This document shows positions 18,778 through 44,176 of a stretch of 64,000 nucleotides of DNA, one piece after another. A program made the translations under genes and the position numbers. Origin of the DNA: Halovivax cerinus (GTDB lineage Archaea > Halobacteriota > Halobacteria > Halobacteriales > Natrialbaceae); assembly GCF_024498195.1 (NCBI RefSeq), contig NZ_CP101824.1, positions 2,418,001 through 2,482,000 of the forward strand, read 5' to 3'. The notes under the pieces are model-generated. The model worked only from the letters and a program-made list of their open reading frames with translations. It was not told where the DNA came from and did no database searches. Numbering within the stretch: the first letter of the stretch is position 1; each line of letters begins with the position of its first letter.

Positions 18778-20151
18778 TCAACTCGGCAAGGTACTCGTCG
18801 TCGATTCACGCAGCGCCGGTGCCGAGATGTACGCGAACGCGGCGCAGTAGATAGTACCCATCAGGAAGACTTTGAACAGGGACGTGGCCTGGCCGAGGAA
18901 CAGTTGATTGCCCAGGTAAATCGCGAACACGCCGTACAGCGCGACGTACGAACTGTTGTGGTCCGTATTGGGATCGAAGTACTCGTACCCGAACCTGAGC
19001 ACGATGCCGAACAGGAACGTCCCGACGAGGACACCGGGGAGCATGAAGTTGTAGTACAGTTCTCCCACGAGCGAGGGCGGGACGCCGCCGCCGGGCATGC
19101 CGACCCCTTGAGCGTAGATCGTCTCTCCGAAGAACTGTCCGATGTTTTTTGGTTTCGCTGGCCAGAGCCGTCGTGGAATCGGAAAGACGATCGGATGGAG
19201 TAACGACTGACCGTATGCCGGGTCGAGATCCGCCGGTACACGGTGGTAGATGTGGCTGACGATAGATATTCCGTTCGTCCGGGCGCCCACGATCGGATCG
19301 ACAACGCGAGGCGAGAGGAGAAATGGCAGCAGGTCGGCGGATGTAACGTTCGAACTCCAGGCCAACCGGCGAAGCATTGCCATTAACCCCGCCAACAGCG
19401 AGAAGGCAATCACGAATCCGGATAGAAGTGTCGGCCCAATACGACGCCACGTGTAGTGAAAGATGACCACCAACAGGACGAAAAACCACAGCAGTCCGGA
19501 TCGATTGCTCGCGTAGAAGGGCGTAAGGCTGGCGCCGACTATCATGATACCGGCGAGTCCATAGTGGTGGAGTTTGCGGGTTTCTACCGCTGCAGAGAGG
19601 TGGACGAGATAGATGATTGCGGCGACCTGAAGCAGCGTTGTCCCCCAGCGAATGTACTCCGTCGGTGGATACCGTTTTCGCGAGATGTCGCCGACTGAGG
19701 CTGGTATCCCACCGGTCGTGTAGACGAACACTGCGACCGAGGCGACGCCGAGAGCGGCGTAAACGGCGACGACTCGTCGTGCCCGTTCGCCGTGCCAGTC
19801 GAGGCTGGGTCGCCACGCTCGATCCGCTATCGACTGACCGACGGGGAGCGAGTAGCCGACGACGGCGAATCCCACGGCGAGGACGCTCAACGCCATCGGA
19901 GCGACGAGGTACTCGATCCCGTGCCCGAGGAGGAGGCCGTCGGGGTCGCCAGCGATGGCGTAGTCGATCGCCGGTCCGAACCAGCCCATCAGGAACGCGA
20001 GCCCGAGAAACCCCATCGGCGAAAAGATGTCGCGGTCTCGCAGGTACGCGATGGAGATGACGAGGAGTCCGATCGTCGCGAGTGCGACGAGCTGGACGCG
20101 TGGCGACGTCACCGCGTCGCCGACGAGGAGGGGTGAAACGCTACCAGTCAT
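18778..20151 (-). CDS. Wzy-like oligosaccharide repeat-unit polymerase
   Basis: A 457-residue protein with about 11-12 membrane helices and a large outer loop near residues 270-360 (HRVPADLDPAYGQSL; PIPRRLWPAKPKNIGQFFGE; GGVPPSLVGELYYNF). This architecture and the 'PPSLVGELYYNF' loop are those of the O-antigen polymerase/EpsG-like group, which join lipid-linked repeat units outside the membrane. It starts directly after the stop of the sulfatase-fold gene and is third in the operon that begins at 22847. Confidence 0.82.
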   Translation of the reverse strand: MTGSVSPLLVGDAVTSPRVQLVALATIGLLVISIAYLRDRDIFSPMGFLGLAFLMGWFGPAIDYAIAGDPDGLLLGHGIEYLVAPMALSVLAVGFAVVGYSLPVGQSIADRAWRPSLDWHGERARRVVAVYAALGVASVAVFVYTTGGIPASVGDISRKRYPPTEYIRWGTTLLQVAAIIYLVHLSAAVETRKLHHYGLAGIMIVGASLTPFYASNRSGLLWFFVLLVVIFHYTWRRIGPTLLSGFVIAFSLLAGLMAMLRRLAWSSNVTSADLLPFLLSPRVVDPIVGARTNGISIVSHIYHRVPADLDPAYGQSLLHPIVFPIPRRLWPAKPKNIGQFFGETIYAQGVGMPGGGVPPSLVGELYYNFMLPGVLVGTFLFGIVLRFGYEYFDPNTDHNSSYVALYGVFAIYLGNQLFLGQATSLFKVFLMGTIYCAAFAYISAPALRESTTSTLPS

Positions 20152-23014: not shown

Positions 23015-24754
23015 TCACTGTTTCGGCGGGAGCGACGATGGCACTCGTGCGTGTGGATCCTCGCCGATCGTTCGTTCGAGCGCCGGCGCGTGCGATCGAA
23101 TGTACCGGAGGCGGTCGATCCAGTCGATGTCGAGTCGCCAGTTGATGCCCTTGGCGATCGGTGGCCGTCGGGCATAGGCCTCCGGAAAGCAGGCGAGAAA
23201 CGCATCACGCGACAGACCGACGCCGTCGCAGTACCGGCCGACGAGCGACGAGACGACGGCGCGGTAACGGCGATCGTCGACGAACATCGTTCGAAACCCA
23301 TCGCAGAACGTCTCGCCGACGTAGTCGGCGTACTGAAGGAGAAAGAACGCCGGATCGATGATCGGGTTTCCGTCGAGCTCGCCGCGTTCCCAGTCTATGA
23401 CCCGGGTTACGCGCTCCGATTCGACGTAGACGTTGGAGCCGAAGAAATCGCCGTGTACGGGTGCCGGGAACAGATCCAGATGGTCCGGAGGTGAATCGGG
23501 AGAAGAGAGGAGGCGATCACCGCTGCTCGATCGCGCGGCGAGTTCGGCGTGGCTTAGTCGGACGCGCTTCCCTCTGCAGGCTTTCTGGAGTCCGACGAGC
23601 CAGTCGATCGCGATCGATCCGGTCCGATGGAGGGCTTCCGGGGTCGGTTCCATCCGATGTTTGAGCGTCGTCCCGTTGATCGGCTCCTCCACGAGCTGGG
23701 GGCCGAAGGGGGACGGTTCGAGCCGCGTTTGCGAGATCCCGGTGACCGAATCGTCTCGAAGCCGAGCGGTGATCACGGCCTCGTTGGCGTTAAACACGGA
23801 CTGGCGGGTGCTGTTCGGGAGTTTCACCGCCTCGGTGATCGTGCCCTCCTCGATCGCGAGCAGCGTCGATCGGTTCCGGCCGGACATGAGCAGCCCATCT
23901 CGGGTGACGGGGGTACCGCTCCGTTTGGCGACGAAGAGGTACTCCGGGTAGCACTGGTCGAGGAGCCCAAGCCCCGCCGACAGCCTCGCGAGCGCCTTTC
24001 CGAGCCGGAGCGGGCCAGTGATGCCAGCCTTGTCGTTCGCGCCGAACACCCACTCGACGACGTCTCGGTCGGAAACGTCGAACACCCACTCGTTCTTTCG
24101 ACGCGCCGAGGACAGTCGTGCGAACGTTTCGCATTCGTCGAATCCCGACCGGGCGAACAGTTGGCGGAACGCACGTTTCGTCGAGCCGAGCGCACTCGTG
24201 AGCGTCTCGTCTCTGGCGACGGGTTCGAGTTCGATGCCGAGCAGATCGGTCAGTTTTGCCTCCCGCGGTAAGCCGTTCGTCAGAACGACGAGCGTTCCGT
24301 CCCGATCGAGAACCGCGTCGAGCGCCTCGATTGCGGCGTTCAGTTCGCTCCTGGTCGCGGTAACGACGACCGTATTGAACGAGTTCGGCTCGACCGGGAG
24401 GGTGTCGAGCGACCCCCTAACCGTCTCGATCTGGGCGTGTTCGACCGAGGCAATCGCACGCGTCGCTCCGAGCTCCGGCTCGGATCCGCTCAGGACCGTC
24501 ACGCTGTCGGCGATCGCCGACAGGAGGATGCCGGTCTGCCCGGGTCGAAAGCCACAGACGAGACACCGGCCCCGAAGTTCCTCCGGGAGCAACAGTCGCC
24601 AGCACGCCGTTCTGGTCTGTAGGAACCGTTTTAGGATTTCGTCACCACGGTCGCTCGTCCGGACGAACTCGTCGAAGGCGTCGGCGGGGTTCAGACGAGC
24701 GAGGAGGTCGGCTAATCGTCGATAGCGGGCCTCGTCCGAACGTGCGCTGCGCAC
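23015..24754 (-). CDS. Methyltransferase-like/aminoglycoside-phosphotransferase-like kinase fusion
   Basis: 579 residues from a GTG. Residues about 60-200 look like a class I methyltransferase fold, but motif I is degenerate (VCGFRPGQTG). Residues 290-560 are an APH/choline-kinase-type kinase with the catalytic loop HGDFFGSN (434-441), the metal motif DWE (454-456) and a possible ATP-binding lysine in AVKLPNS. It resembles, in concept, E. coli WbdD, whose kinase plus methyltransferase caps polymannose O-antigen; that is analogy, not homology I can show. A longer paralogue lies at 35675-37564. It ends 167 bases before the sulfatase-fold operon. Confidence 0.8.
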   Translation of the reverse strand: MRSARSDEARYRRLADLLARLNPADAFDEFVRTSDRGDEILKRFLQTRTACWRLLLPEELRGRCLVCGFRPGQTGILLSAIADSVTVLSGSEPELGATRAIASVEHAQIETVRGSLDTLPVEPNSFNTVVVTATRSELNAAIEALDAVLDRDGTLVVLTNGLPREAKLTDLLGIELEPVARDETLTSALGSTKRAFRQLFARSGFDECETFARLSSARRKNEWVFDVSDRDVVEWVFGANDKAGITGPLRLGKALARLSAGLGLLDQCYPEYLFVAKRSGTPVTRDGLLMSGRNRSTLLAIEEGTITEAVKLPNSTRQSVFNANEAVITARLRDDSVTGISQTRLEPSPFGPQLVEEPINGTTLKHRMEPTPEALHRTGSIAIDWLVGLQKACRGKRVRLSHAELAARSSSGDRLLSSPDSPPDHLDLFPAPVHGDFFGSNVYVESERVTRVIDWERGELDGNPIIDPAFFLLQYADYVGETFCDGFRTMFVDDRRYRAVVSSLVGRYCDGVGLSRDAFLACFPEAYARRPPIAKGINWRLDIDWIDRLRYIRSHAPALERTIGEDPHARVPSSLPPKQ

Positions 24755-28440: not shown

Positions 28441-28526
28441 CGATGCGGATGGCCATTCCGATCGGCAAGAACGTTACAGTACAGTCACGTGTAGGTGACG
28501 ATTTCTCCGGCGCTCGGGCACAAACG

Positions 28527-28534
28527 GTTTACCT
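28527..28534 (+). promoter_or_regulatory. TATA-like element before the GT4-HprK-like operon
   Basis: GTTTACCT is 24-31 bases before the ATG at 28558, supporting this start over an upstream in-frame one at 28495. Confidence 0.45.
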
Positions 28535-28557
28535 GGCTTCCCCGGGACATCGTCGGC

Positions 28558-29847
28558 ATGACCACCGCGTCGTCCGAACCGCGCGTCGTTCTCCTGTCAC
28601 AGTATTATCGCCCCGATACGTCCGCGAACGCGGGCGTGCTGACCGAACTCGCGTCCGGCCTCGCCGACCGCGGCGTCGACGTCTCCGTCGTCACTACCCA
28701 GCCGTCGTACACGGCGGACGACCGCGCGTCGAAACGGCCAGCCGACGAGGTCATCGACGGCGTACACGTTCGCCGGTTGCCCGCAACCCGGTTCGACCGA
28801 AACGACGGCGTCGCGAAGCGAATGCTCAACGAACTCACGTTCTTCCTCGTCGCGTCCGCGTTCCTCTTCGTTCGCCAGCGCGGCGACGTCGTGCTGTTGC
28901 CGACGGCCCCATCGTTTCTCCCCGTGGCAACTGTCCCTCTACGCTGGCGAGGGTATCGACCCGTCCCGATCGTGATGGACCTCTATCCGGAGATGGCCGT
29001 CGCCCTCGGCTATATCGACGCAGGAGGAATCGTACACCGGGCGTGGGAGTGGGCGAATCGGCGGGCGTATCGGCGGGCCGTCGTCACCGTGACCATCGGC
29101 GAGCGGATGGCCGAGCGGATCCAGGAACGCTACGGACCTGTCCCGGTGGCGGTTATTCACAACTGGGAGGACGGCGACGAGATCGAACCGATTCCGAAGG
29201 CCGAAAACGAGTTCGCCCGGAAACACGGGTTCGACGCGGACCTGACGGTCCTGTACTCCGGGAACCTCGGTCGCCACCACGAACTCGAAAGCGTCGTTCA
29301 CGCGGCCCGGCTGCTGGAAGCCGACGGCGTCGACGGAGTCGAATTCGTCTTCATCGGTGACGGCGGCAAGAAAGAGCGGCTGCAGGCGCTCGCCCGGGAA
29401 CACGACCTCGACTCCGTCTCCTTTCTCCCCTACCAGCCCACGTCCGTCCTCCCGCAGTCTCTCACGAGCGGTGACGTCGCCCTGGTGACGATGGACGAGG
29501 CCGTCGAGGGGCTTTGTGTGCCAAGCAAGTTCTACACCGCGCTCGCGAGCGGACAGACTATCCTCGCCGTGGCCCCAAAATCCGCCGAAATCGCCCGCAT
29601 CGTCGATCGACACGACTGTGGCGTCACCGTCGAACCGGGCGAGTCGGGAGCGATCGCCGACGCCGTTCGCGAGTGGCTCGAGAATCGTGAGGACGTAGCC
29701 GATACGGGTGCCCGTTCGAGAACGGTCTTCGACGAGAGGTACACGAAAGAAGTCGCCATCCAGTCGTATCTCGCGCTAATTCGACGCGTCGTCCACCCTT
29801 CACCGCCGTCACCTACGGTGAAACCGTCGGAATCGCCCTCGAGGTAG
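28558..29847 (+). CDS. GT4-family glycosyltransferase (WcaI/WbuB-like)
   Basis: 429 residues. The pattern LLSQYYRPDTSANAGVLTEL near the start and LLPTAPSFLPVATVPLRWRG, then DLYPEMAVALGYID, are those of WcaI/WbuB-type GT4 enzymes, which often transfer fucose or N-acetyl-fucosamine in capsule synthesis. YSGNLGRHHELES and DEAVEGLCVPSKFYTALASG form the donor-binding domain; GLCVPSK replaces the usual EX7E loop. A GDP-6-deoxyhexose donor is plausible given the neighbouring gmd-like and fcl genes. The HprK-like gene follows eight bases later. Confidence 0.85.
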   Translation: MTTASSEPRVVLLSQYYRPDTSANAGVLTELASGLADRGVDVSVVTTQPSYTADDRASKRPADEVIDGVHVRRLPATRFDRNDGVAKRMLNELTFFLVASAFLFVRQRGDVVLLPTAPSFLPVATVPLRWRGYRPVPIVMDLYPEMAVALGYIDAGGIVHRAWEWANRRAYRRAVVTVTIGERMAERIQERYGPVPVAVIHNWEDGDEIEPIPKAENEFARKHGFDADLTVLYSGNLGRHHELESVVHAARLLEADGVDGVEFVFIGDGGKKERLQALAREHDLDSVSFLPYQPTSVLPQSLTSGDVALVTMDEAVEGLCVPSKFYTALASGQTILAVAPKSAEIARIVDRHDCGVTVEPGESGAIADAVREWLENREDVADTGARSRTVFDERYTKEVAIQSYLALIRRVVHPSPPSPTVKPSESPSR

Positions 29848-29855
29848 CGCGACGA

Positions 29856-30968
29856 ATGCCGACGTTACTTTTCACCGCCGACGGTGAAATAGCGTCTGTG
29901 AGATCGTACAGCTTTTACGACGACTTTCGGCTGGCCATTCGCGGGTCCGGTGCGATCGCCGACCACCTCGATCTCGTCTATCGCCACTTCGCTGAGGACG
30001 AGGTACATGACCCCGACCTGCAGCTCACGGTGACAGACGTCGACGTCGATCCGGACGGCATTCTTGGTGGCCCATCGAAATTTTACACGACCTTCGACGA
30101 TCGATTCGTCCTCTCGAACGAAGGTGGCGTCTGGACCGTGGACGAGGAGTGGACGTCGATCCACTGTACGCCAGGCGTCCACAACGCGTGGACGCGAGCG
30201 ATCGTGGAGGCTGAGCTGCGGAGGGTGTTGGCAGAACGCGACTTTGCGATCATCCACGCCTCTGGCGTGACCGTCGACGGCGAGACGATCGTCTTCCCGG
30301 CGTGGCGCCACACGGGGAAGACCAACACGATGCTGACGATGCTCGCTGAGGGCGGCGAGTATCTCTCCGACGATCGAATGTGGGTCGGCGCCGACGGGAC
30401 GATCCGGCCGTTCCCGATTCCGATCCACCTGCTCTCGTACAACTATAACGCGTTTCCCTCGCTCTCGCCGGACAGGCTGACAGATATTCTGGCGACGGCG
30501 AGTACAGCTCTCGATTCGATCGTTTATGATCGTACGGGGAAATTGGGCAAGGGCCTCGACCTGTTCAATCGGGGGTTCCTCACTCGATCCAACTGGGTCT
30601 GGCCCGACCAGTTGTTCCCGGACGTATCGGTCTCCGAGACGACGAGCGTCGATAAAGTCGTCCTCCTCCAGAGCACCGGATCGACGACGCCGTCGTTCGA
30701 ACGCGTAGACCCCGACGAGTTGACGGCGATGCTCGAAGTGATAAACGAGTACGAATGGAACAGTCGCCTCAGGGAAATATACACCGTTCACGACACGATG
30801 CGAGACGCCGCTCCGCTCAAACGACCACAACTCGGCGATCTCGTCGATCGGGAGCGAGCGATTTTCCAGTCCTTCGTCGATACCGCGGACATCTATCGAT
30901 TGCAACTCCCCCAGCAGGAAGGGTGGACGGACGAAACGAAGGCCCGGATCCGGTCGTTCCTGCGCTAA
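29856..30968 (+). CDS. HPr-kinase/PEPCK-fold kinase-like protein of unknown target
   Basis: A 370-residue protein. Residues 130-180 carry the HPr-kinase-type core: FAIIHASGVTVDGETIVFPA, a P-loop AWRHTGKT (149-156, fitting A-x4-GKT), and a Walker-B-like LSDDRMWV (DD at 172-173). The N-terminal 110 residues are family-specific; the C-terminal half is helical. HPr-kinase relatives without a phosphotransferase system occur in glycan and peptide-modification loci, where their target is unknown. It shares a unit with the preceding GT4 gene and converges on the flippase gene with a four-base overlap of the two stops. Confidence 0.75.
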   Translation: MPTLLFTADGEIASVRSYSFYDDFRLAIRGSGAIADHLDLVYRHFAEDEVHDPDLQLTVTDVDVDPDGILGGPSKFYTTFDDRFVLSNEGGVWTVDEEWTSIHCTPGVHNAWTRAIVEAELRRVLAERDFAIIHASGVTVDGETIVFPAWRHTGKTNTMLTMLAEGGEYLSDDRMWVGADGTIRPFPIPIHLLSYNYNAFPSLSPDRLTDILATASTALDSIVYDRTGKLGKGLDLFNRGFLTRSNWVWPDQLFPDVSVSETTSVDKVVLLQSTGSTTPSFERVDPDELTAMLEVINEYEWNSRLREIYTVHDTMRDAAPLKRPQLGDLVDRERAIFQSFVDTADIYRLQLPQQEGWTDETKARIRSFLR

Positions 30969-32443
30969 CCGGCTCGTTCGCCGATGGATTCGAGCAGGCG
31001 TCGGTCCCCGTCTTCCAGTCCGAGCAGGGTGATCGTTGTGCCGAACGCGATCGTTCCGGTCACGGCAGCGACTCCAATCCACAGCGGACCGCCGAAGGCT
31101 TTCGAGAACGCGACGAACGTCGCAACGGCGGGAACGAGAGAGAGGCCGCCTTTCCAGTAGGACCGGTTGTAAGGGGTCGGTCCGACGAAGTATCGGACCT
31201 CCACCAGTCGAACCACGTTCAGGAGGGTTAACGAAAACGCCGTCGCGATTGCGGCCCCCAAGACACCGTACAACTGGATCAGCCAAACGTTCAACGCCGC
31301 GTTGACGAACAACATTCCTGCGGCGTTGTAGAGCTCTATCCGCTCGTAGTTGGTCATCTTCAGGACGTTCCCACCCGGCCCAGTGGCTGCTACGGTCGCC
31401 TGCCCGACGGCCAGGACGCTGAGCGCGACGGCGCCGGCACTGAAGGCTGGACCGAAGAGTCGCATAATCTCTTCGGCGAAGACGACCACGAACGCGGCGC
31501 CGAGGCAGGTCAGGTATGCCGTCCACTTCGTGATCGAGATGTAGAACGCGTCCAGCCGTTCCGTGTCACGCTGGTGGTAGGACTCGGCGATGATACTGGG
31601 AAAGATGACGTTGGTCGCGTTCAACACGATCGTGATTAGCATGGAGGTCTGAAACGCAATCTGGTAGACGCCGACCGCTCTGGGGCTGGCGAAGACGCCG
31701 AGAATGAGGATATCGACCCAGGAAGCGGCGTAGGAGGTGACGCCGGCGAACAGTAGCGGGAGCGAGAAGAGCAGAATTTCACGGGACTGAAAGTTCGGGT
31801 TCCCGATCGACTCGAACGCGCCGAGCCGATACAGATAATATCCGACTGCGACGACGCCAACGGCCAGCGAAAGGACGTACGCGTAGATCACCAGTTGCAG
31901 GCTCGTGAATACGAACGCGGCCACGGCAATACAACCCAGCGCGACACCACTCTGGATAAACTCTCGCGTGTACACGGAGTACTTGGTTTCTTTGAACCCT
32001 CTCGTGGCGTGCATGCCGATCTCCATCAACGCGAGGAGTGGTATCGCGAGGACGAACGATCGAATCACCGATCGATACGCGTCGAAGAAGCCGATGGACA
32101 GTTCTGTGAGTGCAACGAGTACGACGACGGTCACACCACCGAAGGCGATCGAATAGCCGACCGTCGTGAGAACCACGCCGGTAACCGTTCGACTCTCACC
32201 GTCCCCTTCGTGGATCGAGACGTACTTTTCGGCCGCTTTGTCCAGTCCAGCCTGCGCGAACCGCGATCCGATCTTCACGACGACCAGCCCCATCGCGAAG
32301 AACCCGACGGCCTCCGGCCCCAGCCCGCGGGCGATTACGAACTGGATGAGGTAGCGAATCCCCTTTCCAACGACGGCGCCCGCGAACGCGACGCCGACGA
32401 GGAACAGGACCGATCGCCGGAGCGGCTCGCCGCTCCCCATCAT
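30965..32443 (-). CDS. Wzx-type polysaccharide flippase (MOP superfamily)
   Basis: 492 residues from the first of two adjacent ATGs at 32443; a start at 32491 adds 16 basic residues. About 14 hydrophobic helices are arranged as in Wzx/RfbX lipid-linked oligosaccharide flippases, beginning LFLVGVAFAGAVVGKGIRYL, a typical 'K...Y..' membrane start. It moves the finished lipid-linked unit across the membrane. A second flippase is encoded at 42683, so the locus may serve two glycans. It is divergent from the initiating transferase gene. Confidence 0.86.
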   Translation of the reverse strand: MMGSGEPLRRSVLFLVGVAFAGAVVGKGIRYLIQFVIARGLGPEAVGFFAMGLVVVKIGSRFAQAGLDKAAEKYVSIHEGDGESRTVTGVVLTTVGYSIAFGGVTVVVLVALTELSIGFFDAYRSVIRSFVLAIPLLALMEIGMHATRGFKETKYSVYTREFIQSGVALGCIAVAAFVFTSLQLVIYAYVLSLAVGVVAVGYYLYRLGAFESIGNPNFQSREILLFSLPLLFAGVTSYAASWVDILILGVFASPRAVGVYQIAFQTSMLITIVLNATNVIFPSIIAESYHQRDTERLDAFYISITKWTAYLTCLGAAFVVVFAEEIMRLFGPAFSAGAVALSVLAVGQATVAATGPGGNVLKMTNYERIELYNAAGMLFVNAALNVWLIQLYGVLGAAIATAFSLTLLNVVRLVEVRYFVGPTPYNRSYWKGGLSLVPAVATFVAFSKAFGGPLWIGVAAVTGTIAFGTTITLLGLEDGDRRLLESIGERAG

Positions 32444-32878
32444 TTCTCGAAACGACACAACCGTACTCCGACGGCGAGGGTGGGAAAACACCTGGCCTGT
32501 AGCTCGTGCCTACTCTCTTCGGAGTCACCGCGGGCGGCACCGACCAGGGCGAGTAACCGACGGCTGTGAACGCAGCCGTCGGCGCGGTGGTGTCGAGAGA
32601 CGGTCCGATCGCACACAGCTCTCAGATTCCTCGCCACCCGCGAGTTGTTCGAAACCGACCCGATCGATGTGGTCCCAGCGGCCCGTGTGGCGACGAGTTC
32701 AGTTCGGACCGCCGACGCGGTCGCGCTGTCAATCGACTGTTACTCTGCGACGGGTGCGGTGTCGGTGCGTTTCAGCTATCGAGCCACGAGTGCCCGGTCG
32801 GATGCCGTGTGGGTAGTTAAAGTATGTGACTGAAACGACGGTCCGTGGTTATCCGGCAGGCGGTCGACGGATGGGTTC
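32444..32878. other. Divergent intergenic region with a long palindrome
   Basis: 435 bases between the flippase and the initiating transferase. No gene was found. It contains a perfect 10-base inverted repeat (32557-32582) and should hold both promoters. The left 100 bases are basic-coding-like but probably only an extension of the flippase frame. Confidence 0.5.
32557..32582. promoter_or_regulatory. Perfect 10-bp inverted repeat
   Basis: CCGACGGCTG, six-base spacer TGAACG, CAGCCGTCGG. It lies between divergent glycan genes, about 115 and 300 bases from the two starts. It could be an operator for a dimeric regulator, or a hairpin in a leader RNA. No U-run follows on either strand, so it is not a classical terminator. 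Confidence 0.6.
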
Positions 32879-34522
32879 ATGCGCATGGTTCGGAGTCGCT
32901 CCCTGGCGAATCTAGCGAGCGTCTTCGCACTCTCCGCGGTCGTTGCCGGTAGTGCCTCCCTCGTCAGCGACGTGTCCAGCGAGCCGATTTCATCGGCCGG
33001 ACCGGTCTCGGGCGTTCCGATGGTGTTCGCCTTCGCTGTCGTCACCGCTGTGGTAACAACGGTGTCGGTCGGACCGCTGGCCGTCTCCGGGCCGTGGGGG
33101 CCACGGACGGTCCTGCGCGGGACGGTAGGGCGAGTGGCTGTCGCCACGCTAGTGGTCGCGCTCATCTCGCTCGTCGTGCCGGCGTTCCCGGACGTTTCCA
33201 CCGTCGTCGTAACGGGTGTCGTTCTGGCGACGTTGCTCACTGGCTGGTTCGTTCGCTTCGATCGGCCAAGCGGCGGTGGGACGCTCGTCGCGACGACCGA
33301 TCCCGACCTGGCCAGCCGCGCCATCGAGACGTTACCTGTCCGCCCAGATGGATTCGTCTCTCCGCCGCTTCACGTCACACCAGACCCCCGGGTCGACGGC
33401 GTGGACACGACGCACGAACGGGGTACCGACGCGGACTCGACGGCCAATCGTTCGGGTCGTCGTCCGATGGATGGCGTCCCGGCACCCACCGAGGAGGACG
33501 ACGGCCAGCACAGCCCGCGCAGCGACGGCGGCCGGCCGGCAAACGAGTCGGATGGCAACGAGGACAGGGATAGGGACGTAGATCACGACTTCGGGAATTC
33601 GGGTTCACCGCACAGGGTGACGATCGACGCGGAAACGGAGGCTGTCGTCGAGACGTCGACGCTCGACGGCGTCGCGGCGATCGACGGCGTTCCTCGTCTC
33701 GGCGGCTTGTCTCGGCTGGATGCGATCTTTTCGTCGCACGACGTCGATGCAGTCGCCCTGGCCATCGGCGAGGCTGACCGTTGTGAGTTCTTCGGGACGC
33801 TAGAGCTGTGTCGCGATCACACCATCGCGGCGCTCGTCCCGGCCTCTCTCGCCGAGCACGTTATCGTCACCGAGGAACTCGACGGTGGGTTCTATCGGGT
33901 CGACCTGAACCCGTGGTCGTGGTACAGCCGTCTCGGGAAACGCATCTTCGACCTCGCGTTCGCCGCGTTCGGCCTCGTCGTTCTGACCCCGCTCATCCTC
34001 CTCATCGCCGCGGCGATCACCCTCGACTCCGCTGGCCCGGTGTTCTACGAGCAACCTCGAACGACGACGTTCGGCCGGCAGTTTCGGCTCCTGAAGTTTC
34101 GGACGATGGTACCGGAGAGCGACGACGCGGCGCCGCTCGGCGACGAGCAGAACGAACGGATCACCCGGGTCGGTCGGCTCCTTCGGACGACCCACCTCGA
34201 CGAGATCCCACAACTCGCCTCGATCCTCGTCGGAGATATGAGCGTCGTCGGCCCGAGAGCAGTCTGGACCGAGGAGGAACGCCTCCTCGAACGGGAGGTG
34301 CCCGGCTGGCGCAGCCGATGGCTCGTGAAACCCGGGCTAACTGGGCTGGCGCAGGTCCGGGGCGTCACCAGCACCGACGGGCACCGGAAACTGGAACACG
34401 ACCTGGAGTACGTCCGTGACCGATCGTTCCTGCTGGACCTTCGGATCGTTCTCGCACAGATTCACACCGTCCTGACGGATACACACTCGCTGGCGACCGG
34501 CGACGACGGAGGGTCGTCCTGA
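32879..34522 (+). CDS. Initiating sugar-phosphate transferase (WbaP/polyisoprenyl-phosphate type)
   Basis: 547 residues; an ATG two codons later is equally good. Four N-terminal membrane helices (residues 8-125), a Rossmann-like middle region interrupted by a long low-complexity acidic insert (about 160-250, rich in D, E, S, R), a further membrane segment LVVLTPLILLIAAAITL, and the C-terminal catalytic domain. Catalytic signatures: KRIFDLAF, KFRTMVP, THLDEIPQL, SVVGPRAVW, KPGLTGLAQVRG. It transfers a sugar 1-phosphate from an NDP-sugar to a polyprenyl phosphate, the first step of glycan assembly. The next GT4 gene starts one base after its stop. Confidence 0.87.
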   Translation: MRMVRSRSLANLASVFALSAVVAGSASLVSDVSSEPISSAGPVSGVPMVFAFAVVTAVVTTVSVGPLAVSGPWGPRTVLRGTVGRVAVATLVVALISLVVPAFPDVSTVVVTGVVLATLLTGWFVRFDRPSGGGTLVATTDPDLASRAIETLPVRPDGFVSPPLHVTPDPRVDGVDTTHERGTDADSTANRSGRRPMDGVPAPTEEDDGQHSPRSDGGRPANESDGNEDRDRDVDHDFGNSGSPHRVTIDAETEAVVETSTLDGVAAIDGVPRLGGLSRLDAIFSSHDVDAVALAIGEADRCEFFGTLELCRDHTIAALVPASLAEHVIVTEELDGGFYRVDLNPWSWYSRLGKRIFDLAFAAFGLVVLTPLILLIAAAITLDSAGPVFYEQPRTTTFGRQFRLLKFRTMVPESDDAAPLGDEQNERITRVGRLLRTTHLDEIPQLASILVGDMSVVGPRAVWTEEERLLEREVPGWRSRWLVKPGLTGLAQVRGVTSTDGHRKLEHDLEYVRDRSFLLDLRIVLAQIHTVLTDTHSLATGDDGGSS

Positions 34523-35635
34523 ATGCGGATCTGTCGCGTGGCACAGAAGGTCTATCCAGACGTTCCCGGCGGCGGACCGTATCACGTTCACGCGATGAGT
34601 CGCGACCAGGCGGCCCGCGGGCACGACGTGACCGTGTTGACCGTTCGTCACGACGCCTCGCTCCCGCGCGTCGAGGAACGAGACGGCTACACGATTCGCC
34701 GATTCGATCCGACGGCCTGCGTGCTCGGCAACGACTTCTCGCTCGGACTCGCGCGTCGACTCGCGGACTTAGACGACGTCGATGTCGTTCACGCTCACTC
34801 TCACCTGTACGCGTCCACGAACGTCGCCGCGATCAGGCGCTCGCTCGACGACATCCCGCTCGCGATCACGAACCACGGACTGTTCTCCCAGAACGCCCCG
34901 GCGTGGGCGATCGAGGGCTACCTGCGCTCGATCGGTCGGTGGACGCTCAACCGCGCGGATATCGTCTTCTGCTACAGCGAGGTCGACGAGCGACGGCTTC
35001 GATCGTACGGCGTCTCCACACCGGTGGCGGTCGTCCGGAACGGCATCGACGTAGACCGGTTCTCACCCGATGGCCCGACGAGTGACCTGATCGACGACGA
35101 CGGTATCGTCGTCCTGTTCGTCGGACGCCTCGTCGAGGGAAAGCGGCCGAAGGATGCGGTTCGGACGCTGGAGTACCTCCGGCGGGACCTCAACGACGTC
35201 ACCCTGTACGTCTGCGGCGACGGTCCGCTCCGAGACGATCTGGAGACGGCGATCGCCCGACGCGATCTGGTAGACCACGTCGAGTTCCTCGGCCACGTCT
35301 CGTACGACGAGATGCCGAGACTCTACCGGAGCAGCGACGTGCTACTCCTCCCGAGCCGGGCAGAGGGTATGCCGCGAACGATGTTAGAGGCCCAGGCGTC
35401 CGGTCTCCCGGTCGTCTCGTCCGATCTCGATCAGTTGCGAACGATCCGGACGTCGGCCGATCGGTTCGTCTCCGACGATGCGGGAAGCGCCTTCGCGGCG
35501 GGCGTCCAGTCGGTTATCGAGACGAACGGTCATCTGAAGACGACAGACGAACCGTCGAGCCGATTCTCGTGGGACCGAACGGTCGAGGAGACGACGACGG
35601 TGCTAGAGCGACTGGTGACCGACCGGCACGTATAA
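34523..35635 (+). CDS. GT4-family glycosyltransferase
   Basis: 370 residues, starting immediately after the initiating transferase stop, so the two are co-translated. GT-B fold: MRICRVAQKVYPDVPGGGPY (glycine-rich N-terminal loop), VHAHSHLYASTN, ITNHGLFSQNAPAW; donor domain LFVGRLVEGKRPKDAVRTL and the EX7E region PSRAEGMPRTMLEAQASGLP. It most likely adds the second sugar to the lipid-linked intermediate, given its tight linkage to the first-step enzyme. The donor is unknown. Confidence 0.88.
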   Translation: MRICRVAQKVYPDVPGGGPYHVHAMSRDQAARGHDVTVLTVRHDASLPRVEERDGYTIRRFDPTACVLGNDFSLGLARRLADLDDVDVVHAHSHLYASTNVAAIRRSLDDIPLAITNHGLFSQNAPAWAIEGYLRSIGRWTLNRADIVFCYSEVDERRLRSYGVSTPVAVVRNGIDVDRFSPDGPTSDLIDDDGIVVLFVGRLVEGKRPKDAVRTLEYLRRDLNDVTLYVCGDGPLRDDLETAIARRDLVDHVEFLGHVSYDEMPRLYRSSDVLLLPSRAEGMPRTMLEAQASGLPVVSSDLDQLRTIRTSADRFVSDDAGSAFAAGVQSVIETNGHLKTTDEPSSRFSWDRTVEETTTVLERLVTDRHV

Positions 35636-35674
35636 CGGCCGTTCGGACGCCGACGGAGCGGTTCGCGCTCGTCG

Positions 35675-37564
35675 TTACCGTCGCCGTCGAGGACGCTTCG
35701 GTGACTCGATTCCGCCACTGCACGTCCGTATTCGCCGTTCGATCGTCTCCCGGTGATCCCACACGTTCCGAATCCGCGCGTCCCACTCGATATCCAGCCG
35801 ACCGTTCAACTGACCCTCCGTTCGGACGCGTTCGACGTAGCCGATCGCGAGGTAGGTGGCCATCGCCCGTGCGTCGACGCCGATCGTCACGCCGTATTCG
35901 GCCAGGTCTTCGTAGACGACCGACGAGTAGGGGTTCCGATCCAGGAACAGCCGTGCGAACCCCGTTTCGAAACCGTCCCAGAGCGACGTCGCCGACTGGA
36001 GCGCAACGAATCCGGCATCGACGATCGGGATTCCCTCGACGCTGGCCCACTCCCAGTCGATGACGCCCGTCACCTCCCAGTCGTCCGTTTCGGTGTCCAC
36101 GTAGATGTTCGAACCGAAGTAGTCACCGTGCGTGAGAACCTGCGGGAGTTCGATCGGCCGGTCGACTCCGGGTGGATCCGTCAACCCGAGCCGGTCGAGC
36201 GCGAGATCCGAGACGACGTCAGCCGGCTCTTTTCGGACTACTCCCGACTGCGTGCCGAGGTGCAGGCGCTGTAGCCAGTCGAACGCGACGTCCAGAATCC
36301 GTTCGAAACGTTCCGGGTCCCGAGAGAGTACCGAATCGAGCGGCCTCCCGTCGACGGGACGCTCGACTCGTTCCGGCCCGAACACCGTCGTCCTCGTCCG
36401 TGCATTCGGGATCGTTGCCGAAACGGAACTGACCGACGAGGCAGTGCGGGTCGCACGATCGGCCGCCTCGTTCGCCGCTGCGTGGCGCCGACTGTTCGGG
36501 ATCTTTCGAACGGCGGCGAGGATCCCCTCGTCCAGTTCCAGCACGCTCGTTCGGTTCTTGCCGGCCACGCTGACCACGTCCGTGACCGGCGCATCGGGTC
36601 GGGTAGCCACAGGCGATCGCCCGCACACGAACAGGTACCGCGGAAACGTTTGCGCTACCGTACGCGTTCGTCGTCCAATCCGGACCAGCCGTCGTAACAC
36701 GCCGAAACCGGTTCTGTCCGCCGTCGCGTCGAACTCTCCGAGGAGCCACGGCAGTACGTCGTCGCTCTCGGCGTCGAACGCGAGTTCGTTCTCGTGTCGA
36801 CCCCGGGAGAGGAGGCCGTACGTGCGTTCGACGGCGAGCCCGTGTCGATCGAGCGCCCGGGTCACTCTGGCCGGTATCGCGTCGATCGACGCGGCGATCC
36901 GGGTACCGAGCCCGTCTCGCTGGGACGGGGCGAGTCCGAGGAGTGCTGTTAGTCCGAGCTCGCGGATCCAGCCGTCGACGACGAGGGCGAGTCGGCCGTC
37001 CGGCGCGAGGCGGTTCGACACTTCAGAGAGGTACTTCGGGAGTTCGCTCGCCGGACACTGTAGCACGACGAGATCGAAGGCGCCGTCGGGGAACGGAAGG
37101 TCTACAACCGTCGCGTGGAGCGGCTCGACGTCGGTTCCCTCGGCGCTCGCGACGGCCGCCGTCGCTTGGAGGGAGGCGACGGACGTATCCGCGACCCAGA
37201 CAGAGTCCATCGCTTCTGCGACCGAGAGCGCCACCGACTCGTCGTGCGTCCCGACGACGAGCGCCCGCCCGGCACAGTACGGTTCGAGCAGGACTCGCCA
37301 GCCGACCGTTCGCCGCGTGAAGAACCGGTCGACTACCTCGTCGTCGAGGCGGCCCACCTGATGGGCCGCGAAGACGGGCGCTATCGTGTCGTCGATCTCG
37401 AGCCCGGCGAGTTCCCGGAGTTGCTCGGCGCGCGGATCGGGTTCCACGACCGTTGTCGTGCTCGGAACGCCGCCGCGCGACGAGACGTGGCGGCCGCACA
37501 CGAGACACTCCTCGTCGTCCATCGCATCTCGAAGACAGTGCGGACACGTCGGTGACCGGGCCAC
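35675..37564 (-). CDS. Zinc-ribbon/methyltransferase-like/kinase fusion, paralogue of the gene at 23015
   Basis: 629 residues from a GTG. Residues 7-23 are a zinc ribbon (CPHC-x9-CLVC) lacking in the shorter paralogue. Residues 95-250 are a methyltransferase-like fold with degenerate motif I (VVGTHDES) but intact later strands (DLPFPDGAFDLVVLQC). Residues 330-620 are an APH-type kinase: GKNRTSVLELDEG and RKIPNSRR, catalytic loop HGDYFGSN (479-486), metal site DWEW (503-506). The central block [GRK]NR[ST]...EG...AV.K.PNS.R is shared with the paralogue. The function is unknown; glycan phosphorylation or chain capping is suggested by context. Confidence 0.8.
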   Translation of the reverse strand: MARSPTCPHCLRDAMDDEECLVCGRHVSSRGGVPSTTTVVEPDPRAEQLRELAGLEIDDTIAPVFAAHQVGRLDDEVVDRFFTRRTVGWRVLLEPYCAGRALVVGTHDESVALSVAEAMDSVWVADTSVASLQATAAVASAEGTDVEPLHATVVDLPFPDGAFDLVVLQCPASELPKYLSEVSNRLAPDGRLALVVDGWIRELGLTALLGLAPSQRDGLGTRIAASIDAIPARVTRALDRHGLAVERTYGLLSRGRHENELAFDAESDDVLPWLLGEFDATADRTGFGVLRRLVRIGRRTRTVAQTFPRYLFVCGRSPVATRPDAPVTDVVSVAGKNRTSVLELDEGILAAVRKIPNSRRHAAANEAADRATRTASSVSSVSATIPNARTRTTVFGPERVERPVDGRPLDSVLSRDPERFERILDVAFDWLQRLHLGTQSGVVRKEPADVVSDLALDRLGLTDPPGVDRPIELPQVLTHGDYFGSNIYVDTETDDWEVTGVIDWEWASVEGIPIVDAGFVALQSATSLWDGFETGFARLFLDRNPYSSVVYEDLAEYGVTIGVDARAMATYLAIGYVERVRTEGQLNGRLDIEWDARIRNVWDHRETIERRIRTCSGGIESPKRPRRRR

Positions 37565-37701
37565 GGGGGTTCGAGTGGCCGGACCACGCCGTCGGGGTTA
37601 AGCATTCGCGTCGGGGCCACCGGTGTCGGAGCCGATCGAGCGATTGGTCCATCCGACCCGCCGAGTAAGGGCGCCGTACAGCCGGTTCACCCTGCCAACC
37701 A

Positions 37702-37709
37702 CTTTAGGG
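37702..37709 (+). promoter_or_regulatory. TATA-like element before the nucleotidyltransferase-like gene
   Basis: CTTTAGGG is 22-29 bases before the ATG at 37731 and decides for that start over the in-frame ATG at 37623. Confidence 0.4.
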
Positions 37710-37730
37710 CTCTCCGCGGTACCTCCGGCG

Positions 37731-38687
37731 ATGGACGTCGATTCCGCCCACCCGTCCGCCGCGGCGATCGCGACGAGGTACGCGACCGCCGGGGCCGACG
37801 ACTGGACGGACGTGTTACGGCGCGCCGACGCGAACGGGGTCGCGACCGTGGTCCTTGAGACGCTGTTCGCCGGCGAGGAGGGACCGATCGGTGCGGATCG
37901 GACGGGCGAGCTGGACTGTCGGGCGCTCGACGCGTCCACCCCCGAGTACCTCTCGGCGGCCCTTCGACGCCGACGGTCGCGCGCGGAGCAGTTCGAACTC
38001 GACCTCGAGGCCGTCGGTGGCCACTTCGCAGATCGGGGAATTCCGTACGCGGTGATCAAGACGAACGTCGACCACGCGTACCACCCGTGGGACCTGAACG
38101 TCCTCGTCTCCCCGGCTGACTTGCCGGCCGCCGACGAGTTGCTCACCGCCAGCGGCTGGGAGCGGACGTCGCTCCGCGCGCACCCGCTCGCCCGGACCGA
38201 GCCGGGAAAGCGGCTGTACGAACACCCGGTCAGGCACCCGGTCCACCTCCACCGTGCGGTGTCGTGGAACGGGCTCACCTACCTCCGGCCGGAGACCGTC
38301 CTCGACTCGCGGTGTCGCATCGACGGCGTTGCCTACCCGGATCCGGTCGTCGACGCCGCGATTCACTGTGCGCACACCGTCTTCGAGGGATTCTCCCTCC
38401 GACTCGTCGAAGCGCTCGAGATCGTCCGTCTGCTCGGTGACGCGGCGGAATCGGATCAGGTGCGCGCTCGTCGACTCGCGGTGGACAACGGCTGGCCGGC
38501 CGGCTTCGACCTGGCGCTGACGACGGCGACGTCGGTCGTCGACGCGATCGAGCACGACCCCGCGTCGGTGTCTCTCCCGAGACGCTATCCGCGCCGCCAA
38601 CTCGTCGGAGCCTGGCTGCAACACGCTCGTCGAACGGGCGGGTGGTACGAACCGCCGCTCAACGCCCTCCTGGGGGTTGTCAAATGA
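37731..38687 (+). CDS. Nucleotidyltransferase-like protein (NTP_transf_5 type)
   Basis: 318 residues. The middle (FADRGIPYAVIKTNVDHAYH then PWDLNVLVSPADLPAADELL and RHPVHLHRAVSW) resembles the uncharacterised nucleotidyltransferase family found in capsule, lasso-peptide and related loci, where HPr-kinase-like proteins are also found. In that family 'K' and 'DLNVLV' occupy the place of the nucleotide/metal-binding strand. No membrane segment. The activity is untested, and the assignment rests on pattern only. Its stop overlaps the start of the thymidylate-kinase-like gene (ATGA). Confidence 0.62.
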   Translation: MDVDSAHPSAAAIATRYATAGADDWTDVLRRADANGVATVVLETLFAGEEGPIGADRTGELDCRALDASTPEYLSAALRRRRSRAEQFELDLEAVGGHFADRGIPYAVIKTNVDHAYHPWDLNVLVSPADLPAADELLTASGWERTSLRAHPLARTEPGKRLYEHPVRHPVHLHRAVSWNGLTYLRPETVLDSRCRIDGVAYPDPVVDAAIHCAHTVFEGFSLRLVEALEIVRLLGDAAESDQVRARRLAVDNGWPAGFDLALTTATSVVDAIEHDPASVSLPRRYPRRQLVGAWLQHARRTGGWYEPPLNALLGVVK

Positions 38688-39364
38688 CGAGCCGGTCGCT
38701 TCCAGCGCTCGTGGTGGTGTGCGGGATCGACGGCGCCGGGAAGACGACGCAGACGCGACTCCTCGTCGAGTCGCTCGCCGACCGCGGACTCGACGCCAGA
38801 GCGGCCCAGACGACCGGCCCGAACACCCGTGTCACCGGGGCGCTCAAACGCACGATCGCGCCGCGATTCCTCGATCGCGAGGACGACCTGGCCCGGGCCG
38901 GATCGACTGCGACCGGACCGGCGAGCGCTGGCGGCTGGATCTTCCTCGTACGCGGGCTCTGGGGGAGCTGGACGACCGTCCTCGCGAACGCCACCGCAGA
39001 CGTGCTCGTCCTCGATCGCTACCTCTACGACGACCTCGTCCGCGTGGCCTGGCGCTACGGGTACGAGGAATCGCGACTCGTCGCCCTCTCGCGACTGGTT
39101 CCCGCGCCGGCCCTGATCGTCCGTCTGGTCGCGCCGACCGCGGTCGCCTGGGAGCGCGAGTCGGACGGACGGACGACGCTCGCCGAACACGAGGCGAAAC
39201 GCGCCGCCTACGACCGGGTCTTCGCAGCACTCGATACCGATGGCGCGATACTCACCGTCGATACCGGCGAACACGGCGTCGAGGAGACGCGAGATCGACT
39301 CCGCCGCGCGTTCGACACCCGCCTCTCGACGGTCGCAGCCGACTCCCGTCGTGCGCAGCGGTGA
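38684..39364 (+). CDS. Thymidylate-kinase-like P-loop kinase
   Basis: 226 residues from the ATG at 38684 (overlapping the previous stop). Walker A GIDGAGKT near residue 12, 'DRYLYDDLVR' (the DR[YF] motif of the TMP kinase family) near residue 108, and a lid region. The region between, RFLDREDDLARAG, differs from housekeeping TMP kinases. Its position, coupled to a nucleotidyltransferase-like gene inside a glycan locus, suggests another phosphoryl acceptor such as a sugar or lipid. The true substrate is unknown; it could still be dTMP. Confidence 0.75.
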   Translation: MTSRSLPALVVVCGIDGAGKTTQTRLLVESLADRGLDARAAQTTGPNTRVTGALKRTIAPRFLDREDDLARAGSTATGPASAGGWIFLVRGLWGSWTTVLANATADVLVLDRYLYDDLVRVAWRYGYEESRLVALSRLVPAPALIVRLVAPTAVAWERESDGRTTLAEHEAKRAAYDRVFAALDTDGAILTVDTGEHGVEETRDRLRRAFDTRLSTVAADSRRAQR

Positions 39365-39409: not shown

Positions 39410-40663
39410 TCACGTTCGGAGACCGGACGGGTTGGTCCGTGTCAGTTCCGCCTCCGCCAGACACTCCTCGACGACGCGTACGAAGGTCGACACCAGTGCC
39501 GTCTGCGAGTAGGAGGTTTCGACGATCTCGCGGCCCCGTCGGCCGAACGCGCGCCGTCGATCCGGATCGGAGAACTGTTCCAGTGCGTCCGCGAACGCGG
39601 CCGGGTCGGGCTCGTCTAGCAGGTAGCCCGAGGCGCCGTCCTCGACGTAGTGTGCGAGCCCACCCACTCGTGTCGAGACGACCGGCAGGCCACACGCCAT
39701 CGCCTCGAGCGCAGCGATACAGAGTCCCTCGTATGCGGAGGTGTGCAGGTAGACGTCGTGTCGTCGCAGGAACGACGCGACGTCGTCGACGAACCCGACG
39801 AACTCGACGGTATCGAGGCCCAACTCGTCGCGCTGGGAGCGCAATCGGTCAGCGAGTTCCCCGGTCCCCGCGATGGTGAACCGGACCGTCGGCGCTCCCG
39901 CACGCGCTTCGAGTTCTCTCGCCGTCTCGAGCACCCGAACGTGTTTCTTCGGCGGGACGAGCGAACCCACGGTCGCGACGCGAAGCGGACGGGCGGTCGA
40001 GTGCCGCCGCGGCGTGGGTGTCGACGCTTCGGCCGGACGGGGCCCACCGTCGGTGGTCCCTTCCGAATCGGTCTCTGCTGGCACGAATTCGTCCGTGTCC
40101 ACGCCCGCGATCGGAACCGTCCGAACCAGGTCTGGGTCGACGCCGACGTCGTCGACGAGTGCCTCCGCGACCGCCGGTGAGTCGGCGAGGATCCGATCGG
40201 CGAGTCGATTCGTCGCGACCACCGCTCGCTCGCGGAGTCGCGAGGAAAAGCGCTCGCTGTGTATCCAGTTCACCACGACCGGAACCCGGTGTACGCGCCC
40301 GAGCACCCGGCCGACGAGGGTCGCGTGAAAGAGCGAGCAGACGAGGACGTCGGCCGAGGCGACGGTGCGCGAGAGGACGAGCGGTCGTCGCCACGGGGCG
40401 ACCGACTCCAGTTCGCGGACCGTGACCCACCCGGGTATCGCCGCTCGGACGTCGTCCGTTCCCCGGTAGGCGCACACGACGGTGACGTCGTACAGATCGC
40501 GATCGAGTCCGGCGAACAACCTCGACATGCCGATCTGCGCGCCACCGGCGGACAGTGTCGAGACGAAGTAGACCAGCGAGTACCGTTTCGCCGACGTTCC
40601 GACCGACGGCCGATCCACGGACGAGCGCACGCGTGGCCGCTCCGGATCCGATCGCGTCGTCAT
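39410..40663 (-). CDS. GT4-family glycosyltransferase
   Basis: 417 residues from ATG 40663; the longer upstream frame is not coding. N-terminal domain YFVSTLSAGGAQIGMSRLFA (the 'GGAQ' acceptor loop of GT4), donor domain VATVGSLVPPKKHVRVLETA and SAYEGLCIAALEAMACGLPV (EX7E). A short proline, threonine and arginine-rich insert (EASTPTPRRHSTARP) separates the two domains. It adds one of the later sugars. It converges with the thymidylate-kinase-like gene. Confidence 0.86.
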   Translation of the reverse strand: MTTRSDPERPRVRSSVDRPSVGTSAKRYSLVYFVSTLSAGGAQIGMSRLFAGLDRDLYDVTVVCAYRGTDDVRAAIPGWVTVRELESVAPWRRPLVLSRTVASADVLVCSLFHATLVGRVLGRVHRVPVVVNWIHSERFSSRLRERAVVATNRLADRILADSPAVAEALVDDVGVDPDLVRTVPIAGVDTDEFVPAETDSEGTTDGGPRPAEASTPTPRRHSTARPLRVATVGSLVPPKKHVRVLETARELEARAGAPTVRFTIAGTGELADRLRSQRDELGLDTVEFVGFVDDVASFLRRHDVYLHTSAYEGLCIAALEAMACGLPVVSTRVGGLAHYVEDGASGYLLDEPDPAAFADALEQFSDPDRRRAFGRRGREIVETSYSQTALVSTFVRVVEECLAEAELTRTNPSGLRT

Positions 40664-42539: not shown

Positions 42540-42686
42540 ATGTGCTCCGTGCCTCGTGGGACGGGTCGCTCCGACCTCGTTGCCGTCGTGGGCCGGGCGA
42601 CGGCCCGACGATCGTTCGTCAGGACCGGTCGCGGGTTGGCCGCCGGATCCAGCGGACCGGACCACGGTAGCGCTCCGAACCGATGA
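42540..42686 (+). CDS. Possible 48-residue leader ORF coupled to the second flippase
   Basis: An ATG at 42540 opens a short frame (MCSVPRGTGRSDLV...) that ends in TGA overlapping the flippase ATG (ATGA). The palindromic TATA-like GGTTTTACC at 42506-42514 is 26-34 bases upstream, so a leaderless transcript would begin at this ATG and not at the flippase. The product is arginine-rich, which is unusual for this organism, so it may be a coupling peptide or a chance frame. Confidence 0.3.
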   Translation: MCSVPRGTGRSDLVAVVGRATARRSFVRTGRGLAAGSSGPDHGSAPNR

Positions 42687-44176
42687 AATCGCGCCTCCTT
42701 CGCGGATTCGTCGCGGTCCTCGGGGGCAACGTCACCACCAAACTCGTCGGCGTCGCGTTCGTCCCGGTACTCGTCAGGTTCGTCGGGAGCGACGGCTACG
42801 GCGATTACGCGTTCGTCACCTCCTCGATGTGGCTGTTGTTGATCGTCGCGAACGCGGGCATCTTCACGAGTCTTCGCAAGTACATTCCGGAGGCGCGTGA
42901 CTACCCGGACTGGGCGGATCGGGTGTTCGGCTTCTACGTCCGATGGGCGGTCGTCCTCGTCGGCGCCGCGGTCGCACTCGTCCTCGCCGGCGTGGCGACG
43001 GGTGCGGTCGGCGGCCTGTTCGGCGACCGGTTCGGCACGTACTTCCTCGTCATGTGCGGCATGCTCGTCACGACGCAGTTTCACTCGGTGACCAGAGCCG
43101 CACTGATGGCGTTCGGCCGCGAACCCGCCTCGGAGGGGTTACACGCCCTCCAGAAGGCCCTCTTCGCCGGATTCGCCGTCCTTGCTCTCGCCGTCGGATT
43201 CGGGGTGACGGCCGTCCTCGTCGCGTTCACGGTCGCGTCCGGTATCGTCGCCGTCGCCGGCGCGGTTGCGCTCAGGCACAACGTGGCACTGCGAGCGGTT
43301 CTGGAACGTCCGCCTCCGGACTTTCCTCGCCGCGAACTGTTCGCGTACAACGGCCTGACGATTCTCCTGATCGGCGGCACGTTCTCGCTCTATCACGTCG
43401 ACGTCGTGCTCTTGCAGACGTTCTACGGCAGTCACGAGACCGGCCTCTACCGGGCGAGCCTCCAGATATCCGAGTTCCTCTGGTTCGTCCCGATCGTCGT
43501 CGGGACGGTGTTTATCCACTCGCTCTCGGAACTGTGGTCGCGAGATCGGACGGACCTCGTGGAGGAGATCGCCGCACGCTCGACGCGCTACACGATCGTC
43601 GTCACGCTCCTGTTCGCCCTCGGCGTTGCCGCCCTCGCCGAGCCGTTCGTCGCGCTCTACTTCGGCGAGGACTTTCTCCCGGCCGTCGGGCCGCTGCTCG
43701 TCCTCTTGCCCGGCGCGTTCGGGTTCGCGATCGCCAGACAGCTGTTCTCGGTCGGCCAGGCGAAGGGTGCACTTCGGGTACTCATCGCCGCGACGGGCTC
43801 CGCCGCCGCGCTCAACCTCGTCCTGAACCTCCTGCTGATTCCGCCGTACGGCATGTGGGGCGCCGCCGTCGCCACGTCGACGAGTTACGGCTCGATGGCC
43901 GTCTTCCACGTCCGGGCCGCCAGATCGATCGGCTTCGATCCGCTCGCGGACATCAGGGCCGGGCCCACGCTCGCGACGGCCCTGCTCGCCGCACCGGCGA
44001 TCCTCGGGGCCGGGTACGCACTCGATGGCCTCGTCGCGCTCGTCGTCGTTCCGCCGACCGGGTTCGTCCTCTACGCGGCGCTGGCGTTGAAGACCGGGGC
44101 CGTCGATGCCGCCGAGGTGACCGATCTCGTCGGTCCGCTCCCCGAACCCGTCGCGCGAGCGCTCGCCTGGTTCTGA
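42683..44176 (+). CDS. Second Wzx-type polysaccharide flippase
   Basis: 497 residues, about 14 membrane helices. MKSRLLRGFVAVLGGNVTTK and 'GVAFVPVLVRFVGSDGYGDY' are the standard opening of the polysaccharide transporter (Wzx/MATE-like) family, and charged loops (TRAALMAFGREPASEGLHAL) fit. It presumably flips a lipid-linked glycan across the membrane. No second Wzy was found in the window, so this unit may be used by the same polymerase or by an oligosaccharide transferase elsewhere. It is the last gene of the glycan locus. Confidence 0.86.
   Translation: MKSRLLRGFVAVLGGNVTTKLVGVAFVPVLVRFVGSDGYGDYAFVTSSMWLLLIVANAGIFTSLRKYIPEARDYPDWADRVFGFYVRWAVVLVGAAVALVLAGVATGAVGGLFGDRFGTYFLVMCGMLVTTQFHSVTRAALMAFGREPASEGLHALQKALFAGFAVLALAVGFGVTAVLVAFTVASGIVAVAGAVALRHNVALRAVLERPPPDFPRRELFAYNGLTILLIGGTFSLYHVDVVLLQTFYGSHETGLYRASLQISEFLWFVPIVVGTVFIHSLSELWSRDRTDLVEEIAARSTRYTIVVTLLFALGVAALAEPFVALYFGEDFLPAVGPLLVLLPGAFGFAIARQLFSVGQAKGALRVLIAATGSAAALNLVLNLLLIPPYGMWGAAVATSTSYGSMAVFHVRAARSIGFDPLADIRAGPTLATALLAAPAILGAGYALDGLVALVVVPPTGFVLYAALALKTGAVDAAEVTDLVGPLPEPVARALAWF

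Follow-up and report, generated by a model that had tools for sequence, protein, structure and literature searches.

The window, a stretch of 64,000 nucleotides at G000:C1:2418001-2482000, belongs to a haloarchaeal genome of 3.9 Mb in a single contig and has a G+C content of about 65%. Its gene content was established with a codon-based gene caller and Pfam/NCBIfam family searches, which identify the cluster as one of the haloarchaeal lipid-linked surface glycan type. The genes concerned are the following (positions within the window).

18778..20151, minus strand: O-antigen-polymerase-like membrane protein, a weak Pfam match (23.9 bits against a cut-off of 24.2)
20152-23018, starts at 20152 and 21576: two adjoining sulfatase-family genes, from family searches
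23015..24754, minus strand: second methyltransferase-APH kinase fusion (MT-APH), a paralogue about 30% identical to the copy at 35675
start at 24983: GT4 glycosyltransferase, from family searches
starts at 26357 and 27379: sugar-nucleotide epimerase and GDP-mannose dehydratase-like genes, assigned by eye and by clustering
28495..29847, plus strand: WcaI-like GT4 glycosyltransferase, directly upstream of the HprK-like gene on the same strand
29856..30968, plus strand: HprK/PEPCK-superfamily P-loop protein of 370 aa (HprK-like), from motifs and modelled fold
30965..32491, minus strand: polysaccharide flippase, from family search
32879..34522, plus strand: polyprenyl glycosylphosphotransferase, initiating the lipid-linked glycan
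34523..35635, plus strand: GT4 glycosyltransferase
35675..37564, minus strand: MT-APH fusion that has an N-terminal CxxC..CxxC ribbon, intact kinase motifs and a degenerate SAM motif I
37731..38687, plus strand: NTP_transf_5-like protein of 318 aa, window-type (Pfam PF14907, 44.9 bits against a gathering cut-off of 31.2)
38684..39364, plus strand: thymidylate-kinase-like (TMPK-like) P-loop kinase of 226 aa (Pfam PF02223, 31.5 bits against a cut-off of 27)
39410..40618, minus strand: GT4 glycosyltransferase, with a homologue adjoining the TMPK-like gene in G207 and G256
40926-42410: beta-helix protein, from family searches
42683..44176, plus strand: second flippase, by similarity, with a 72% homologue in the G256 locus

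The genes named in the original prediction are all confirmed at their starts by strong coding scores, and since those of the kinase set have homologues in other haloarchaea, they are not chance open reading frames. Named relatives of the window genes come from Haloarcula, Halorubrum, Halobellus, Halogeometricum and Halomarina. Many haloarchaeal glycan loci hold relatives of the two sulfatase-family genes, whose products may be hydrolases or else phospho- or sulfo-transferases, and relatives of the beta-helix protein adjoin a lasso-type cluster in G063 (L137:11946-13683).

In each of the six genomes found to contain both the NTP_transf_5-like and the TMPK-like gene (G000, G207, G256, G288, G068 and G002), the two are adjacent and stand beside glycan genes. 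Their reading frames overlap in five of the six, in the window by the ATGA already recognized in the original prediction, and the called frames in G207 stand about 22 bases apart, possibly due to start choice. The window-type NTP_transf_5 protein occurs in 2 of the 242 genomes of a class sample; a search of 125 family genomes added G256 and G288, and a TMPK profile search added G068, then G002, where the NTP_transf_5 neighbour was read directly. The window-type pair is known from four homologues, of which three come from one genus and the fourth, in G288, from outside it, and G002 and G068 represent two genera distant from the window genome. Pair co-occurrence is given as counts without a p-value, as genomes with a common glycan island are not independent. 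An alignment scan for NTP_transf_5 in the named genomes confirmed no relative, and a tblastn search of both proteins against plasmids gave no match.

Besides this pair, the accompanying genes vary. In G207, G256 and G288, the pair is flanked by the same initiating glycosylphosphotransferase and GT4 (32879 and 34523 in the window). An MT-APH fusion belongs to the pair locus in G000, G207 and G256, and in G068 a methyltransferase that stands alone and starts with a zinc-ribbon-like stretch lies 1.3 kb from the pair. An HprK-like gene lies near the pair in three of the six genomes, at 7 kb in G000, about 8 kb in G068 and about 10 kb in G002, and the block regions fetched from G207, G256 and G288 showed none. 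The co-occurrence of the families is thus partial, a constant pair forming the core and the other genes being optional. The idea of five enzymes forming one module is not supported, given these three blocks and the fact that the window HprK-like subfamily mostly occurs in cohesin/dockerin operons. Next to the G207 block stand an ABC exporter and several small genes; their reading as a RiPP cassette was rejected, the small genes belonging to ferritin-like and other unrelated families.

The TMPK-like protein scores 34.6 bits against the dTMP-kinase equivalog TIGR00041, for which the cut-off is 83.25. Its P-loop kinase motifs are intact (Walker A GIDGAGKTTQ, DRY and the ERESDGR lid), and Walker A, DRY and the lid arginines are kept in all homologues aligned. 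True dTMP kinases carry a canonical motif after DRY; here, the residues following it are YDD or similar and the usual dTMP-site residues are absent. The G002 and G068 proteins begin with an N-terminal membrane hairpin and their next gene encodes a flippase, which points to a membrane-bound substrate.

The NTP_transf_5-like protein is a member of PF14907 by its score, with a remodelled active site. In 4/4 window-type homologues, the metal triad D-D-[DE] aligns with D-N-H, as in the product of 37731 where D121-x-N123 is found and H172 occupies the third-carboxylate position. Compared with the G068 and G002 forms, DVD is replaced by D(L/V)N and VDI by V/I-H-L/V, the key positions aligning without gaps. 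The latter forms keep the canonical D-D-D (D-x-D and V-D-I), and members from lasso-peptide clusters keep DxD and the third carboxylate, the combination typical of active pol-beta-type nucleotidyltransferases that all four window-type proteins lack. The segment 141-220, with 40/74 of the invariant positions of the window-type protein, is its most conserved part; as this conservation surrounds the triad, the site appears to be under constraint and remodelled rather than decaying. With two of the three carboxylates missing, phosphorylation is likelier than nucleotide addition, and nucleotidylation is disfavoured on these residues for the window while possible for the G002/G068 form. Thus, where the glycan or its carrier had been predicted to be phosphorylated or nucleotidylated, the first alternative stays plausible given the intact kinase motifs and the second loses ground. 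PDB sequence searches with the NTP_transf_5-like and HprK-like proteins gave no useful match, and searches of the open-access literature returned nothing on target for the NTP_transf_5 Pfam name or haloarchaeal glycan kinases.

The kinases might alternatively make activated sugar precursors, such as sugar-1-phosphates or modified nucleotide sugars, instead of decorating a finished glycan. The GDP-mannose dehydratase-like and epimerase genes nearby would suit such a role, and sugar 1-kinases, NahK among them, have the APH fold. This explanation is nevertheless improbable, as the canonical NTP_transf_5 family is not one of sugar-nucleotidyltransferases and the window copy is without the catalytic triad, whereas the membrane-anchored TMPK-like proteins of G002 and G068 and the adjacency of flippases favour a lipid-linked substrate.

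Two APH-type kinases had been predicted and are present, but the one at 23015-24754 lies outside the interval concerned and both proved, by family searches and alignment, to be methyltransferase-APH fusions, a feature that the prediction did not mention. All MT-APH proteins (18/18) retain the kinase motifs HGD..N and DWE, and K354, H479-G-D481, N486 and D503-W-E505 are invariant in the 16 aligned, as expected of APH-type kinases. The methyltransferase part is less constant. Its glycine motif, retained by many members such as L098, is lost in the window clade, the SAM motif of the window copy reading VVGTHDESV instead of a Gly-rich stretch, and some members (L080) have a truncated domain. An N-terminal zinc-ribbon-like CxxC..CxxC is present in some members. 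A flippase immediately adjoins the MT-APH gene in 9/18 cases versus 19/262 background genes (Fisher p 7e-6, the loci being not fully independent). In L072, L073, L074, L080 and L097-L101, this adjoining flippase is often accompanied by a conserved protein that has no Pfam match and reaches about 700 aa (cluster cl1).

The AlphaFold model of the 35675 product (mean pLDDT 86.5) has as its best PDB match WbdD 4ax8 (E 4e-7), with both domains aligned in the same order, methyltransferase then kinase in one chain. Other WbdD entries stand at ranks 4, 5 and 14, and the remaining matches are single-domain methyltransferases and APHs with almost equal scores. The overall TM-score of the WbdD match is 0.21-0.27 with an rmsd of about 22 A, so that it supports a common domain order, not a common arrangement. 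No sequence-profile match to WbdD stood among the best 60 chains listed. A C-terminal coiled-coil ruler was not found in the 35675 product, which ends soon after the kinase helices.

The HprK-like gene starts 8 bases after the stop of the GT4 gene 28495..29847. Its product has no Pfam match, Hpr_kinase_C is without a match anywhere in the genome, and the scores against the NCBIfam HprK_rel_A and HprK_rel_B models (TIGR04352/TIGR04355) are 19.5 and 18.2 bits for a cut-off of 200; it is therefore assigned neither to HprK/P proper nor to the HprK-related kinases A and B. As predicted for 29856, it does belong to the HprK/PEPCK P-loop superfamily, displaying a HAS motif, a GK[ST] P-loop (GKT) and a DD motif, and its AlphaFold model (pLDDT 82.5) matches ATP-dependent PEPCK along its length, with a TMq of about 0.5 (E 1e-7), and HprK/P in the core (E 2e-4).

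Full-length relatives with 30-35% identity exist in 12 other genomes of the 242-genome class sample. In Haloarcula, Halorubrum, Halobellus and Halogeometricum, most of them share an operon-like arrangement (L084-L093, L193, L198; also L091, L094, L194, L200) in which HprK is followed by a secreted metallophosphoesterase of Tat type, itself bearing CBM96 and dockerin, and by a cohesin protein. This usual setting suggests that the HprK-like protein could be unrelated to the glycan, a protein-serine or peptide kinase merely located in the cluster. Such a reading is somewhat unlikely, given that the gene stands among glycosyltransferase genes in the window, in G002 and G068 and in some Halorubrum and Halobellus loci, a minority of relatives lying among glycosyltransferase and sulfatase-family genes (L091, L094, L194), and that in G002 and G068 it directly overlaps the end of the upstream glycosyltransferase gene. 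The nearest relative, L189 from a Euryarchaeota MAG, has an ABC exporter in its vicinity. In two genera, L151:9359-13899 and L147:14791-19328 carry a GT4, a 397-aa protein without Pfam match, a second GT4 and an HprK-like gene, with 77-86% identity between them. The window genome itself has 15 of its 16 cohesin module matches within 21 kb outside the window (G000:C1:470364-491710), where no HprK-like homologue was found.

The association of HprK-like proteins with nucleotidyltransferases invoked in the original prediction is real, but it belongs to another type of locus. A canonical HprK and NTP_transf_5 pair is found in about 20 of the 242 haloarchaeal genomes, inside full lasso-peptide clusters (L133-L146, e.g. 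L134:5875-9722) that include PqqD, B2, asparagine synthase, the HprK-like and NTP_transf_5 proteins, an ABC exporter and a small possible precursor. An earlier publication reports a lasso-type cluster in haloarchaea that includes B1, B2 and a kinase (PMC10093198). Among the window open reading frames at 20000-48000, no PqqD, B2 transglutaminase-like protein, asparagine synthase or precursor was seen, and the window HprK-like protein falls outside the subfamily that pairs with NTP_transf_5 in these clusters.

These data bear on the pathway originally proposed, in which five nucleotide-dependent enzymes would phosphorylate and then nucleotidylate (or phospho-glycosylate) the glycan as in lasso peptides. 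A precedent exists in pseudomycoidin, where hexoses are attached by a nucleotidyltransferase to the phosphate that an HprK-like kinase puts on Ser (PMC8498205). The HprK-like, NTP_transf_5 and TMPK-like genes do stand together in one glycan locus in three genomes, each from a different genus, and G002 and G068 keep the canonical triad. Against this stand the window-type D-N-H triad, the three fetched loci where no HprK-like gene was seen and the distance between the HprK-like subfamilies of the window and of G002/G068, which are only about 29-35% identical over parts. A single pathway of this kind is consequently held to be quite unlikely.

The preferred interpretation, to which we give about an even chance, is that the window carries a recurring phosphate-decoration set within a lipid-linked glycan cluster, composed of the NTP_transf_5/TMPK pair as core, the MT-APH kinase and the HprK-like protein as accessory kinase. 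From the gene content, pairing, conserved motifs and model folds described above, we infer the substrates, the order of steps and the phosphate on the product. The surface glycan would be built on the cytosolic membrane face by the initiating glycosylphosphotransferase, several GT4 enzymes, two flippases and the polymerase-like protein, and phosphorylated in the cytosol while lipid-linked, before flipping. In favour of this stand the initiating transferase and flippases of the locus, the membrane hairpin and following flippase gene of the G002 and G068 TMPK-like proteins, the flippases adjoining MT-APH genes and the precedent of WbdD and the O7 terminator. Instead of dTMP, the TMPK-like protein would use ATP to phosphorylate the lipid-linked glycan, at either a sugar hydroxyl or a sugar phosphate. 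Its NTP_transf_5-like partner may use its remodelled site for binding or positioning the phosphorylated glycan, with no nucleotide transfer. MT-APH would be a second glycan kinase phosphorylating the glycan before export, like WbdD or the Klebsiella pneumoniae O7 terminator, methylation by the window copy at 35675 being doubtful.

A broader proposal, namely a haloarchaeal glycan phosphate-decoration system combining a TMPK-derived kinase, a non-nucleotidyl D-N-H NTP_transf_5 protein and a WbdD-like methyltransferase-kinase adapted to flippase rather than ABC export, is rather unlikely as a whole. The enzymes are of known kinds, and the unusual feature is the rewired NTP_transf_5 protein paired with a TMPK-like kinase. 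This pair forms a genetic unit small enough to test, and with D-D-D occurring in G002 and G068 and D-N-H in the window genus and G288, nature offers a contrast by which the function of the uncharacterised NTP_transf_5 family can be tested directly.

We know of no characterised archaeal counterpart of methylphosphate-capping enzymes, and none was found in searches of the open-access literature. In bacteria, WbdD and the O7 terminator of K. pneumoniae act on the glycan end by phosphorylation and subsequent methylation (PMC3482155, PMC11231755). WbdD of E. coli O9a (PDB 4AX8/4AZS), a kinase-methyltransferase chain terminator capping the O-antigen with methylphosphate, resembles MT-APH by an N-terminal methyltransferase followed by a kinase in one protein and by a polysaccharide export context. 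However, the kinase of WbdD is eukaryotic-type whereas that of the fusions is APH-type, and MT-APH proteins are without the coiled-coil ruler, have flippase or glycosyltransferase neighbours and, in the window, a degenerate SAM motif. The O7 terminator ORF6(O7)-N, acting on the non-reducing end of the polysaccharide, also has a methyltransferase then a kinase, the latter resembling the APH-like amicoumacin kinase AmiN (PMC11231755); this likeness to MT-APH is drawn from its description, not from direct sequence comparison, and the O7 enzyme, whose described orthologues are bacterial, differs by its CBM, coiled coil and GT2 modules. With thymidylate kinase, the TMPK-like protein has in common Walker A, DR(Y) and the lid arginines, and it departs from it by the replaced dTMP-pocket residues, the sub-cut-off score and the glycan-locus setting. 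Finally, the lasso-peptide cassettes of paeninodin and pseudomycoidin (PMC8498205) likewise include an HprK-like P-loop kinase and an NTP_transf_5 protein in one locus, whereas in the window both proteins belong to divergent subfamilies and the other cassette genes are absent.
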